This document shows, piece by piece, positions 16,397 through 46,739 of a stretch of 64,000 bases of DNA. This stretch comes from a virus. The notes under the pieces were generated by a model. The model was not told where the DNA came from. It worked only from the letters and a program-made list of their open reading frames with translations, and searched no databases. Position 1 is the first letter of the stretch, and each line of letters begins with the position of its first letter. The stretch spans positions 1-64,000 of the IMG/VR virus record IMGVR_UViG_3300033143_004671. One strand, given 5' to 3'. Made by a program: the position numbers and the translations under genes.

Positions 16397-17560
16397 ATGA
16401 TCAAGGAACGCAAACGCCGATCTATATCCAAGGACCTCAAACGCGAGTCGCTTCCCCCGTCGAGGTATTTTCTAAGTACAGGTAGCACGTTACTCGATCT
16501 CGCTATCTCGGACCGATACCCCGGTGGTGTGGGCAGTGGACGAACTACCCAATTGATCGGGGATAACTCCACGGCCAAGACTGTACTGATGAAAGAGATT
16601 CTAGGCTCGGCACAAAGACAAGGCGGGTTTGCAGTGGAGGAGGAAGCCGAATACACTCCCGACTTTGAACGTGCTGAACTGTTCGGACTAGACGTGGGCG
16701 ATTGGCGTGACGGGGTTTTCGACTCTGATCTTCCTCTAATCGACGCTCTCGACCACGCCGACGCCTACGTCTACCGAAACCCGTCCTCACTCGAGAATGT
16801 GTTTGACGACGAGATAGCACAGATCGTCAATCTCTCCCGTGGGCAGTGGGCGGATGTGACTCTCAAAAAGAATAACAAGGGCGATACTGTCCGCAAGGTC
16901 AAGATGGAGGAGGTCGATGCAATACCCAAACCTATCGCCATAGGCATAGACACGCTGACGGCCTTACCCTCCATCGCTGAACTAAACAGGACACTAAATG
17001 AGAAGTCCTACAATATGGAGCGAGCGAAAGTGATGTCCGCTGGGTTCAGGAAGTACATCAAGCCCATCGGCTCTGAAGACATCACTATCGTCGCTGTAGA
17101 CCATATCCGATCCAATGTGGGTATCTCATTTGGTAAGGACTGGACGGTGAGTGGGGGGAAGGCAATGCAGCAATATGCTAGTACGCGAGTATTCCTCAAG
17201 CACACGGAGACACTCAAGAACAAGCATGGGGTAGACTATGGGGTGAAGATACACTTCAAGGTGGTTAAGAACAAGCTCGCCCCACCATTCCGCGAAGGTG
17301 ATTTCTACGTAATCTTCGACTACGGCATCGACGATATACGATCTAACATCGAGTGGTTGAGGAATCAAAAAGTAGATTCCAAGCTCAAAGTTAAAGGAGC
17401 ATGGTTCAACTGGGGAGAAGAGCGGCTAGGGCAAGGAATCGAGAAGGCCATAACCAACGCCGAAGAGATGGGTGAGACGATGGTGAGGGCGATTGAGAAG
17501 GAAGTCGTCAGGGTATGGCGAATCATACACGAGCCGACTAAGAGAAGGAGAAAGAGATGA
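16397..17560 (+). CDS. RecA/UvsX-like recombinase
   Basis: 387 residues from ATG 16397, chosen over ATG 16379 because AAGGAG sits seven bases upstream. The Walker A is IGDNSTAKTVL, with Ala where RecA has the second Gly; UvsX proteins also vary here. The chain continues AVEEEAEYTPDFERAELFGL and the Walker-B-like IGIDTLTALPS, and ends in a very basic tail KRRRKR. It should form filaments on ssDNA and drive strand exchange. It is followed, with a four-base overlap, by a RuvC-like resolvase gene, and preceded by SSB and mediator, so this is a recombination operon. Confidence 0.85.
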   Translation: MIKERKRRSISKDLKRESLPPSRYFLSTGSTLLDLAISDRYPGGVGSGRTTQLIGDNSTAKTVLMKEILGSAQRQGGFAVEEEAEYTPDFERAELFGLDVGDWRDGVFDSDLPLIDALDHADAYVYRNPSSLENVFDDEIAQIVNLSRGQWADVTLKKNNKGDTVRKVKMEEVDAIPKPIAIGIDTLTALPSIAELNRTLNEKSYNMERAKVMSAGFRKYIKPIGSEDITIVAVDHIRSNVGISFGKDWTVSGGKAMQQYASTRVFLKHTETLKNKHGVDYGVKIHFKVVKNKLAPPFREGDFYVIFDYGIDDIRSNIEWLRNQKVDSKLKVKGAWFNWGEERLGQGIEKAITNAEEMGETMVRAIEKEVVRVWRIIHEPTKRRRKR

Positions 17561-18126
17561 GTGATCTAGTAGTGGCCTTCGATCCGGGCAAGGATGGCTT
17601 TATCTCTTACCTTCACGACGGGGAGACGGGTAGTTGGCCTATGCCTACCGTCAAGATCGGCAAGGGAGGGAAGAGGGACTATGACATCACTGCCCTACGT
17701 ACGATCCTCGATGAAATAGCCGATACAAACCACGACATAGATCTTGCTGTAATCGAAAAGCAGCAAGCTATGCCTGGTCAGGGAGTCACATCTATGTTCT
17801 CGATAGGTATGGGCTATGGTCTGCTGCTTGGCTTGGTTACCGGTTTGCGTCTACCCTATGCTGTAGTTCACCCGAGAACGTGGAAAAAGATCATGCTTAG
17901 GGATGTGCCCGGTGACGACCAAAAAGGCAGGTCGATCATAGCAGCGGGCAGGCTTTTTCCTAACGTCGATCTTAGGAAGAGCGAACGAGCTAGGAAGCCT
18001 CACGACGGTAAGGCCGAGTCATTGCTGCTCGCATGGTATGGATTGCATCACCTATTACTCGTACCCGAAAAGAAGCCGAAGAGGCAGAGAAGGACGATTC
18101 CAGGAGGTGGGTTTGGTTATTGGTAG
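17557..18126 (+). CDS. RuvC-like Holliday junction resolvase
   Basis: 189 residues overlapping recA by four bases (ATGA). The RNase-H-fold acidic sites are visible: VVAFDPGKDG (first Asp), LAVIEKQQAMPGQG (Glu), and HDGKAESLLLAW near the C-terminus (Asp and Glu). Length and motif order fit RuvC-like phage enzymes. It would cut branched DNA left by recombination and replication. Confidence 0.85.
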   Translation: MSDLVVAFDPGKDGFISYLHDGETGSWPMPTVKIGKGGKRDYDITALRTILDEIADTNHDIDLAVIEKQQAMPGQGVTSMFSIGMGYGLLLGLVTGLRLPYAVVHPRTWKKIMLRDVPGDDQKGRSIIAAGRLFPNVDLRKSERARKPHDGKAESLLLAWYGLHHLLLVPEKKPKRQRRTIPGGGFGYW

Positions 18127-18133: not shown

Positions 18134-18157
18134 GGTATGACAGGAAAGGATAGGAAG

Positions 18158-18685
18158 ATGACAAAGAAAACATGGAAAGATTATGTGAGACAAGCTGTCG
18201 AGAAACGCCCCAATGCTGAAAGGGCCGTCAAGATCAAGTATGCTATCAAGTTGCTCCACAAAAACGCCGAGGTAAGAGAGCCTTGGATGAACCAAATGGA
18301 GTACCGTGCGGTCCAAGCCGAGGTAGACGCACTGGAAGCAGCAATCAGACGGGACGCAAAAGACAAGATTGAAGCGGCCGTCGTCAGCAATCCAAGCTGG
18401 AGAGGGGCCGAAGTCATAGACGCTTCCTCGCCTCTCATAGCGGCAACGATCTTCGATACCTGGATAGTGCGGGGCAAGCCGATTATGGCTTGTACGGGTA
18501 CCGAGTTGAAAGCCGAGGCTGTGATTTCCCGTAAGCAGGCCTCGGGTAAACTCAAAAACGCGGAGTTCTACGAATGGCTGTCAGAGGAGGCGGGGGAAGA
18601 TATTGTTGGTGAGGCAGTATCGACCGAGGATGCTGCTATGCGTTGGTGCGAGATTGCGGGAGTCGCTGAGGGCTCCCTTGTTTGA
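18158..18685 (+). CDS. Hypothetical protein directly upstream of the hairpin array
   Basis: 175 residues from ATG 18158 (AGGAAAGGATAGGAAG upstream; the ATG at 18137 is less well placed). No family is recognised. The N-terminal half is helical and charged; the C-terminal half contains IRRDAKDKIEAAVVSNPSW and KNAEFYEWLSEEAGED. It ends seven bases before the first hairpin unit and is in the same orientation as the Tas-like gene, so it could be an accessory factor of that system. Nothing more can be said. Confidence 0.6.
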   Translation: MTKKTWKDYVRQAVEKRPNAERAVKIKYAIKLLHKNAEVREPWMNQMEYRAVQAEVDALEAAIRRDAKDKIEAAVVSNPSWRGAEVIDASSPLIAATIFDTWIVRGKPIMACTGTELKAEAVISRKQASGKLKNAEFYEWLSEEAGEDIVGEAVSTEDAAMRWCEIAGVAEGSLV

Positions 18686-18691
18686 TATATT

Positions 18692-18741
18692 GGAAGGCGG
18701 ACGATCATCCCTTGTCACCCTGACGCCGCATGCCGCCTTCC
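18692..18741 (+). repeat. Array unit 1
   Basis: Arms GGAAGGCGG (18692-18700) and CCGCCTTCC (18733-18741) pair over 9 bp; the closing position is A/G instead of the C-G found in the other units. Spacer-like segments: A = ATCATCCCT, B = TGACGCCGCA. Octamer at 18713-18720. Confidence 0.85.
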
Positions 18742-18754
18742 TTTAAGTTGAACG

Positions 18755-18802
18755 TGGATGGACCAATCGCATAGTGTCACCCTTATAATGACTGTCCATC
18801 CA
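18755..18802 (+). repeat. Array unit 2
   Basis: Arms TGGATGGAC (18755-18763) and GTCCATCCA (18794-18802), 9 bp perfect. A = ATCGCATAG, B = TTATAATGAC. Octamer at 18775-18782. Confidence 0.9.
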
Positions 18803-18817
18803 TTTGATAATTGAATA

Positions 18818-18869
18818 GTAGTGTGGACCAGGTCATGTTTGTCACCCATACAGTCAGTGTCCACACTAC
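18818..18869 (+). repeat. Array unit 3
   Basis: Arms GTAGTGTGGAC (18818-18828) and GTCCACACTAC (18859-18869), 11 bp perfect. A = GGTCATGTT, B = ATACAGTCAG. Octamer at 18840-18847. Confidence 0.9.
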
Positions 18870-18878
18870 AAACTAAAA

Positions 18879-18930
18879 TGGATGTGGGCCATAGTAAGGT
18901 TGTCACCCTATGTACTCATGCCCACATCCA
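18879..18930 (+). repeat. Array unit 4
   Basis: Arms TGGATGTGGGC (18879-18889) and GCCCACATCCA (18920-18930), 11 bp perfect. A = TAGTAAGGT, B = TATGTACTCA. Octamer at 18901-18908. Confidence 0.9.
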
Positions 18931-18940
18931 CGAAACTCAA

Positions 18941-18988
18941 AGTGTGGACCATATATCGTCTGTCACCCTTTAGAAGATTGTCCCCACT
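18941..18988 (+). repeat. Array unit 5
   Basis: Arms AGTGTGGAC (18941-18949) and GTCCCCACT (18980-18988), 8 of 9 paired with one T/C mismatch. A = TATATCGTC, B = TTTAGAAGAT. Octamer at 18961-18968. Confidence 0.88.
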
Positions 18989-18996
18989 ACAAACTA

Positions 18997-19042
18997 GGAT
19001 GGACCAAACACCTTTTGTCACCCTTACGCGGCGTGTCCATCC
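18997..19042 (+). repeat. Array unit 6
   Basis: Arms GGATGGAC (18997-19004) and GTCCATCC (19035-19042), 8 bp perfect, the same stem as unit 2. A = AACACCTTT, B = TTACGCGGCG. Octamer at 19016-19023. Confidence 0.9.
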
Positions 19043-19054
19043 CATAAACCAAAA

Positions 19055-19102
19055 GAGGAAGGCCGAACCTGTTGTGTCACCCAGAGAAACGTTGCCTTCC
19101 TC
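19055..19102 (+). repeat. Array unit 7
   Basis: Arms GAGGAAGGC (19055-19063) and GCCTTCCTC (19094-19102), 9 bp perfect. A = AACCTGTTG, B = AGAGAAACGT. Octamer at 19075-19082. The edge reads GGCCG where most units have GGACCA. Confidence 0.9.
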
Positions 19103-19113
19103 ACAAAACCAAT

Positions 19114-19165
19114 GCGAAGCGGGCCACGACCCGACTGTCACCCATTGCTGGCTTGCCCGCTTCGC
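19114..19165 (+). repeat. Array unit 8
   Basis: Arms GCGAAGCGGGC (19114-19124) and GCCCGCTTCGC (19155-19165), 11 bp perfect. A = CGACCCGAC, B = ATTGCTGGCT. Octamer at 19136-19143. It ends 21 bases before the start of the Tas-like gene. Confidence 0.9.
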
Positions 19166-19186: not shown

Positions 19187-20083
19187 ATGAAACAGGAAAG
19201 AGACCAATCCACCCCCGACACCCAAGACCCCGACATCTCAATCCACCTCATTCAGGACCGCTACCGCCACCGAGTAGCGGCACAGGATGCGAGAAAGAGA
19301 ATCGACAGCCAAACAGGGGCCATGGTTCGCAGATACCTTGGCTACCAAAACGATCTTCCTGAAAAAGAGACCAAAAGGATCGCCGAGGTAGCCTCGGAAA
19401 CGATTAAGGCCATCCAAAAGGGAACCGAAGTACCCGAGGCAGGACAAGTCATTCTCGATTCGCCTGCTTGCGTCATGTTCATCCTCGCGGCAAAGGAATC
19501 GAGGCTGCCCTATATCAATCACGAAAGGCAATGTGAGAAGGAGATGGTCTCCATGGCTAAGAAGCTCCCCGTATATAAATGGGTTGAGTCGGTCAAGGGA
19601 CTGGGTGCGGTTGGGCTGGCCGTTCTCGTTGGTGAGTGTGGTGATCTGTCGAAGTATGCCAATCCTGCAAAGCTGTGGAAGCGCCTCGGATTGGCCGTCA
19701 TGGATGGACGCAGGCAGGGCGACCCTGGGAGCAACGCGACGGCCGAGGATTGGATCGAGCATGGGTACTGTAAACGTAGGCGGTCAGCGTGCTGGACGAT
19801 TCGAGAGCCTCTACTCAAGAATGATAATGAGTACAGGACATTATTGCTCACCAGGAAGCAATTCGAGTATGATAAGGCGACCAAGATTGGATTAGTGGTC
19901 GCAACGACAAGTAAAAAGACGGCCGACAATTGGGAAAAGGTTGGCTTGCCCAGACCGGAAGTCGTGAAAAAGGTCGATACGGAAATCCACCGTTCAGTAG
20001 GGCACATCCACAATCTCGCTGCTCGGTATGTTGAAAAGAGAATGATTCGGGATCTGTGGCGTGCCTGGAGAGATGTAGCGTAA
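19187..20083 (+). CDS. tasA: Tas-like protein with Nop/IS110 C-terminal-type domain (probable TIGR-associated effector, TasA type)
   Basis: 298 residues from ATG 19187, with GAAAGGAAGAG upstream. Residues 1-130 are helical and charged. Residues 133-175 hold WVESVKGLGAVGLAVLVGE, then DLSKYANPAKLWKRLGL, the helix-hairpin-helix core of the IS110/IS116/IS902 transposase C-terminal domain and of Nop-type domains that hold box C/D guide RNAs. A C-terminal helix around 276-295 (HNLAARYVEKRMIRDLWRAW) also fits IS110-type C-termini. The N-terminal DEDD/RuvC-like catalytic domain of IS110 is absent and no HNH or RuvC motif is seen, so this looks like a nuclease-free Tas (TasA type) that binds guides from the adjacent array. 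With no IS ends present, a transposase is unlikely. Family assignment is by motif and context. Confidence 0.75.
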   Translation: MKQERDQSTPDTQDPDISIHLIQDRYRHRVAAQDARKRIDSQTGAMVRRYLGYQNDLPEKETKRIAEVASETIKAIQKGTEVPEAGQVILDSPACVMFILAAKESRLPYINHERQCEKEMVSMAKKLPVYKWVESVKGLGAVGLAVLVGECGDLSKYANPAKLWKRLGLAVMDGRRQGDPGSNATAEDWIEHGYCKRRRSACWTIREPLLKNDNEYRTLLLTRKQFEYDKATKIGLVVATTSKKTADNWEKVGLPRPEVVKKVDTEIHRSVGHIHNLAARYVEKRMIRDLWRAWRDVA

Positions 20084-41180: not shown

Positions 41181-41390
41181 ATGACCAAACACTACATCAA
41201 TAATGAGACGCTCCGCAACTGGATTACACGATACCAGCACCTCGATTATTACGCTGACCTGACAGCCAAGTGCCGTAGGGCAATCCTGACCTCCTACACG
41301 GCATACAGTAGGAACATGACCACCAAGACGGCAAAGGAACTCACCGAGGAATTGATCGAGCAATTCCCCAATGAACTCATGTATGGATAA
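41181..41390 (+). CDS. Small hypothetical protein
   Basis: 69 residues with GAAAGGAAGGCACA before the ATG. MTKHYINNETLRNWITRYQH and a helical C-terminus (AKELTEELIEQFPNELMYG). Not recognised. Confidence 0.5.
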   Translation: MTKHYINNETLRNWITRYQHLDYYADLTAKCRRAILTSYTAYSRNMTTKTAKELTEELIEQFPNELMYG

Positions 41391-46577: not shown

Positions 46578-46739
46578 ATGGCGACGAAACAGGCACAAAA
46601 ATCCCTCACAACAATCATCAGCCATATCGAGACATGGCGAAGGAGGTATGCGAAAAACCTCGACCCGACGGCACGATCCAGGGAAGCCCTGAGGACCCTA
46701 AAGAGATTGCTCGTCAAGGTCGAGTCGAAAAAAGATTGA
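46578..46739 (+). CDS. Small basic helical protein
   Basis: 53 residues, with GGGAGGAGG before the ATG. MATKQAQKSLTTIISHIETW and REALRTLKRLLVKVESKKD. Not recognised; lies just upstream of the sigma-factor promoter. Confidence 0.5.
   Translation: MATKQAQKSLTTIISHIETWRRRYAKNLDPTARSREALRTLKRLLVKVESKKD

Follow-up and report, generated by a model that had tools for sequence, protein, structure and literature searches.

TIGR-Tas systems have been described with two forms of guide array, dual-repeat and stem-loop (Faure 2025; PMC12045711). In the stem-loop form, which is found with a nuclease-less TasA, palindromic stems replace the edge repeats, and spacers of 8-12 nucleotides (nt) lie between a box C and a box D. 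For the family, the same work reports processing of arrays to unit RNAs, a Tas dimer, dual-strand pairing and a DNA bend of ~180 degrees; its authors call the genuine targets, the spacer origin and array change unknown. Here we have analyzed a 64,000-nt stretch (the window), positions 1 to 64,000 of the IMG/VR virus record IMGVR_UViG_3300033143_004671. The source record, a viral contig, is 87,209 bases long and comes from a tailed phage with genes for a tape measure protein, UvsX, DnaB and primase. It carries an array of eight hairpin units (18692-19165) next to a gene that we call tasA. Judged at the level of sequence, this locus is a stem-loop TIGR-TasA system, a known kind, and it fits every sequence-level feature of that form. 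We assign it to TIGR-Tas because sequence profile, predicted fold and array anatomy agree. The 16 variable segments of the array are very probably the paired spacers of a stem-loop TIGR array working with TasA, exchanged over evolution and with competing phages as their probable targets.

Anatomy of the array

All units share the build arm-CCA-A(9)-TGTCACCCW-B(9)-TG-arm and follow one another at a spacing of 55-65 bases. The pattern TGTCACCC N10 TG was found in eight copies (18713-19155), all on the plus strand, and its reversed control gave no match in the whole 87,209-bp record. The octamer TGTCACCC itself has 11 occurrences in the window, where 2.05 +/- 1.46 would be expected. In 8/8 units segment A comprised nine bases between box C and the octamer, and segment B nine bases between W (A or T, ending the loop repeat TGTCACCCW) and TG. 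The original prediction had given nine bases for A, which held, and about ten for B, which is better described as the W of the loop plus nine. UG boxes were present in all eight units, and the edge box C read CCA in six of them, CCG in unit 7 and ACG in unit 1, where the stem likely contains a bulged A.

The stems, of ~7-10 base pairs (bp), were private to each unit. Stem positions 1-8 were Watson-Crick paired in 62/64 cells although the stems differ between units, and several pair types were used at most stem positions. When arms were swapped between units as a control, pairing fell to 25-57% at 7/8 stem positions. The array folded with a z of -6.5 against shuffles; an Rfam search returned a sub-threshold match only. 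The earlier claim of 16 unit-specific, spacer-like segments without repeats proved real: 16/16 are distinct, with a minimum Hamming distance of 3 and typical distances of 6-7, like random 9-mers. A was the reverse complement of B in none of the eight units.

The TasA protein

The tasA product (window protein P0001) gave a weak match to Pfam PF02371 (Transposase_20) and a match to phrog_4285 (1.7e-15), and no RuvC or HNH nuclease domain was detected in it. Relatives were collected from viral contigs (60) and alphaproteobacterial genomes (5). A 51-member family profile searched against all PDB chains retrieved TasR (9mty, E 3.4e-20) and TasH (E 2.2e-6). The AlphaFold model of TasA (predicted local distance difference test score, pLDDT, of 93) was almost all-helical, and its top Foldseek matches were TasR and TasH, both with a probability of 1.0, the IS110 structure 9t56 being a weaker match.

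Arrays in relatives and spacer exchange

Units of the same build stood beside most of the relatives' tas genes; 256 were encoded on the same strand as tas and 2 on the opposite strand. A stricter filter gave 337 units against 2 on the opposite strand over 35 records, a count in which records G038 and G039 carry one array (counted twice) and the main strand is the strand with more units. The pattern CCA N9 TG N4 CCA N9 TG was abundant in array-carrying virus records and nearly absent when reversed. In loci L044-L050, L055, L074, L076 and L077, which include Rhizobium and Shinella prophages, box D reads CG and not UG, both in the loop and at the edge. An isolated phage, Rhizobium phage RHph_X2_25 (L011, MW960032.1), carries an array of ~7 units and a TasA-type gene annotated as hypothetical.

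Very long arrays, of up to ~37 units per record and with two recurring stem types, were seen in L067 (record G042) and also in L061-L064 and L069. Guide units also occurred inside open reading frames (ORFs), namely the N-terminal part of the tas ORF and the start of the upstream gene (L049:5756-6030, L056:2131-2400 and L049:5204/L056:1579). In the unit L049:5204/L056:1579, both spacers were kept between the two phages.

We have then compared two pairs of related phages unit by unit; the units kept their position as well as stem and loop. Between L049 and L056, identity reached 97% in the stems, 94% in the loops and 89% in the DNA outside the units, against 61/126 positions in the spacers. Leaving out three unchanged spacers, spacer identity was ~34%, near the random expectation (Fisher p 7e-27). 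Between L045 and L047, 114/124 stem positions and 35/108 spacer positions were identical (p 2e-24), counts that are approximate given that 1/6 of the aligned unit pairs was not a true ortholog by stem. In one unit (L049:6782, L056:3157) A was replaced and B was kept. Among all stem-sharing units, spacers were either identical or differed at two or more positions, most often at 6-7, and never at just one; these comparisons mostly involve non-orthologous units of one stem type, the ortholog-level evidence coming from about a dozen units. The data point to spacers being replaced rather than drifting gradually, with strong diversifying selection as a possible alternative. A diversity-generating retroelement was rejected, as no reverse transcriptase (PF00078) was present in 20 related records, a search that did not include the window's own record.

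Target searches

Following the published rule (PMC12045711), targets were searched as 5'-A-revcomp(B)-3' with a gap of 0-2; we derived the order from the C-5 rule and the 3' overhangs of 8 nt. The window pairs had on average 3.6 mismatches at their best own-genome sites, compared with 3.9 in shuffled pairs. The closest match, a gapless minus-strand site of unit 3 (41304-41321), agreed at 16/18 positions, and no window pair had an own-genome site with fewer than two mismatches. Pooling 223 units against their own genomes gave 0, 0, 6 and 48 sites at 0-3 mismatches, against 0, 0.2, 3.9 and 51 expected. Exact pair scans of IMG/VR returned two matches for unit 3, two for unit 8 and two for the swapped control pair, and all eight targets at gap 0 gave one 18/18 match in INPHARED at E = 6, which is chance level. 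In ~2 Mb of related phages there was no cross-phage target excess beyond the tas-directed unit described below; four exact cross-phage matches that stem from our own pattern searches were discounted.

The paired search against shuffled or swapped spacers, on which the original prediction had staked the guide role, thus returned chance-level results in the phage's own genome, IMG/VR and INPHARED. A guide role is not refuted by this, since the outcome would be identical for targets that the databases do not contain. The idea of dual guides for opposite strands gains from family membership, as this is the TIGR-Tas mechanism (PMC12045711), and gains nothing from the window pairs themselves. The targets had been expected to reveal whether host, rival phages or the phage itself is addressed; the window pairs do not discriminate among the three, except that own-genome sites with fewer than two mismatches are absent. 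For the nine-base match to unit 8 A near 46661, chance had been given as the explanation, and we agree, such a match being expected by chance.

A tas-directed unit in another phage

One unit of a related phage forms a hairpin just after tas (L035:6675-6715, record G017, IMGVR_UViG_3300037833_000033), folds at -31 kcal/mol and has the spacers TAGGCCCAT (A) and TGGAAGCGG (B). Read as A-revcomp(B) without gap, it would target the complement of TGGAAGCGGATGGGCCTA, a sequence that encodes WKRMGL in frame, part of the most conserved TasA motif. Fourteen non-redundant tas genes matched within two mismatches, three of them within one, and no other unit matched more than one tas gene within two. The mismatches fell at spacer A position 1 in 12/14 and at B position 9 in 7/14; in published work, cleavage tolerates mismatches at these edges. 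The tas gene of the unit's own phage had five mismatches.

Shuffled pairs matched at most 5 tas genes in 49,506, 7 in 60,000 and 2 in 9,680, and the top shuffled values contained one half of the tas-directed unit itself. The way the searched database was built enriches it in tas genes, a bias that the shuffles take into account. The unit in reversed order had no tas match. Its exact 18-mer was absent from IMG/VR, the reason being that almost every tas gene carries a different base opposite spacer A position 1. The best-mismatch count was not unusual (1 observed against 0.25 expected at one mismatch); what is unusual is the number of tas genes matched. Two other units matched four records each at two mismatches, with sites mostly in unrelated genes.

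Companion gene and neighboring features

The gene directly upstream of the array (P0003) had homologs in 43/60 loci by iterative hidden Markov model search, all of them encoded on the tas strand and most lying immediately upstream of the array or of tas (for example L022:4940-5437, L035:5022-5630 and L047:4494-5207); this count includes weak matches in L061, L067 and L069 and a few duplicate loci. Its AlphaFold model (pLDDT 87) was nearly all helical. We found no informative PHROG match and no convincing PDB match by sequence or fold. Going by homology and position, P0003 is an undescribed conserved companion gene beside stem-loop TIGR-TasA arrays.

The RuvC-like resolvase gene further upstream was considered as a trans-acting nuclease and rejected, since it occurred in only 2/41 searched records (the window's included); we count it as a neighbor outside the system. 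A TasR split into two genes was likewise rejected; it would need a conserved stand-alone RuvC beside TasA, which was seen in those 2/41 records. Elsewhere in the window, positions 1483-1591 hold a low-complexity tandem repeat (TTGTT/TTGTTTTGGTC), and a search for DNA polymerase relatives of the window phage found none. The coordinates of the locus are given in Table 1.

Table 1. Array units and adjacent genes, in window coordinates
Feature	Position	Strand	Segment A	Loop	Segment B	Description
TIGR stem-loop unit 1	18692..18741	+	18704-18712 ATCATCCCT	18713-18721	18722-18730 GACGCCGCA	
Unit 2	18755..18802	+	18766-18774 ATCGCATAG		18784-18792 TATAATGAC	
Unit 3	18818..18869	+	18831-18839 GGTCATGTT		18849-18857 TACAGTCAG	
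Unit 4	18879..18930	+	18892-18900 TAGTAAGGT		18910-18918 ATGTACTCA	
Unit 5	18941..18988	+	18952-18960 TATATCGTC		18970-18978 TTAGAAGAT	
Unit 6	18997..19042	+	19007-19015 AACACCTTT		19025-19033 TACGCGGCG	
Unit 7	19055..19102	+	19066-19074 AACCTGTTG		19084-19092 GAGAAACGT	
Unit 8	19114..19165	+	19127-19135 CGACCCGAC		19145-19153 TTGCTGGCT	
tasA	19187..20083	+				Solo Nop-domain (Transposase_20-like) protein, 298 amino acids; next gene after array
Companion gene (P0003)	18137..18685	+				Directly upstream of array; exact start uncertain; all-helical
Phage RuvC-like Holliday junction resolvase	17557..18126	+				phrog_1770, 2.9e-25

Alternative explanations and proposed mechanism

It seems very improbable that the hairpins are DNA elements, that is, protein-binding or recombination sites like integron attC sites or iterons, with the variable segments as unconstrained filler. 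The units are palindromes with variable centers, and attC sites also keep structure and not sequence; however, hundreds of units, found only on the tas strand, hold spacers of a constant 9 nt flanked by fixed boxes, the neighbor is a Tas protein and not an integron integrase, and the spacers change faster than the surrounding sequence, not at its rate. An IS110-type bridge RNA and recombinase, in which the protein would be a transposase and the array a set of multiple target loops, is scarcely credible: Pfam finds no N-terminal DEDD/RuvC domain in TasA, the closest relatives are TasR and TasH, the neighboring RuvC gene is not conserved, and the units are single loops in arrays and not one two-loop RNA. 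These outweigh the Transposase_20 match, the "transposase" label of phrog_4285 and the weaker fold match to 9t56, which had suggested it.

Guides that regulate the phage's own genes or replication also appear improbable. A TasA without nuclease would make self-binding non-lethal, and the 16/18 site of unit 3 speaks for it, but the pooled units yielded no exact or one-mismatch self-sites and a two-mismatch number near chance. Host genes, or defence islands carried by the host, are left open as targets by the published work (PMC12045711), and we have no direct evidence against them; we consider this reading rather unlikely. Close self-sites were lacking, guides are exchanged fast and one unit is tas-directed, all of which favors an anti-phage role.

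Some points weigh against our main reading, paired guides that work with TasA and are probably directed at competing phages. The target geometry comes from TasR/TasH biochemistry with dual-repeat arrays, and for stem-loop TasA PMC12045711 shows only RNA processing. No target was found for any of the eight window pairs in the own genome, related phages, IMG/VR or INPHARED, and the putative inter-phage role draws on one matching unit, found after the fact.

The anatomy, the protein family, the spacer exchange in relatives and the absence of close self-matches are directly supported here. From these we infer expression, processing, binding, an effect on the target and the identity of the window array's targets, as follows. 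The array would probably be transcribed together with the companion gene and tasA. Each hairpin would yield one guide RNA, whose box C (CCA) and box D (UG) would anchor the two 9-nt spacers to a TasA dimer, and an 18-bp target would be paired by spacer A on one strand and by spacer B on the other. The eight guides would direct DNA binding without cutting, because TasA has no nuclease domain; TasA would most likely bind and bend the target, blocking transcription or replication. Spacers would be swapped over evolution while stems and loop stay, and the targets would probably lie in competing phages rather than in the phage's own genome. More tentatively, phages may turn TIGR arrays on one another, including on each other's tas, with spacers swapped singly and in place, sparing stems and loop, perhaps with help from the companion; we regard this wider proposal as possible but doubtful.

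In the sibling phages compared here, the guides, almost alone, are replaced inside near-identical scaffolds, and one guide fits a real gene, the tas of other phages, to a degree that is statistically unusual. The spacer-swapped siblings, the tas-directed guide and the conserved companion gene each make an open TIGR-Tas question testable in laboratory phages and strains, for which Rhizobium phage RHph_X2_25 offers a laboratory handle on the system.

Comparison with known systems

The closest described system, the stem-loop TIGR-TasA of a Peromyscus leucopus gut contig (PMC12045711), shares with this locus a solo Nop-domain TasA without nuclease and several hairpins with variable palindromic stems and two spacers each between box C and box D. 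The locus differs in its constant loop repeat (TGTCACCCW), the build that PMC12045711 discusses as a possible intermediate with dual-repeat arrays, and in the conserved companion gene preceding the array, which the available text of that paper does not mention. With TIGR-TasR/TasH (PDB 9mty, 21kl, 9vzx), the locus has in common a protein homologous by profile and fold, the UG/CCA boxes and spacers of 8-9 nt; TasR and TasH have a nuclease domain of their own (RuvC or HNH) and their dual-repeat arrays are compact, whereas P0001 has neither such a domain nor such arrays.

The IS110/IS1111 bridge-RNA transposases possess a related Nop-type RNA-binding domain (Transposase_20) and a dual-strand guide logic, whereas the window protein has no DEDD/RuvC and is accompanied by an array of single-loop guides. 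A CRISPR array was rejected, since there are no near-identical direct repeats of 25-36 nt, only the 9-nt loop is common and the stems differ. Both kinds of array hold many units of variable guides, but the array described here lacks long identical repeats and splits its guides into 9+9 nt. In CRISPR new spacers enter at the leader end, whereas here they are replaced in place inside fixed stems.
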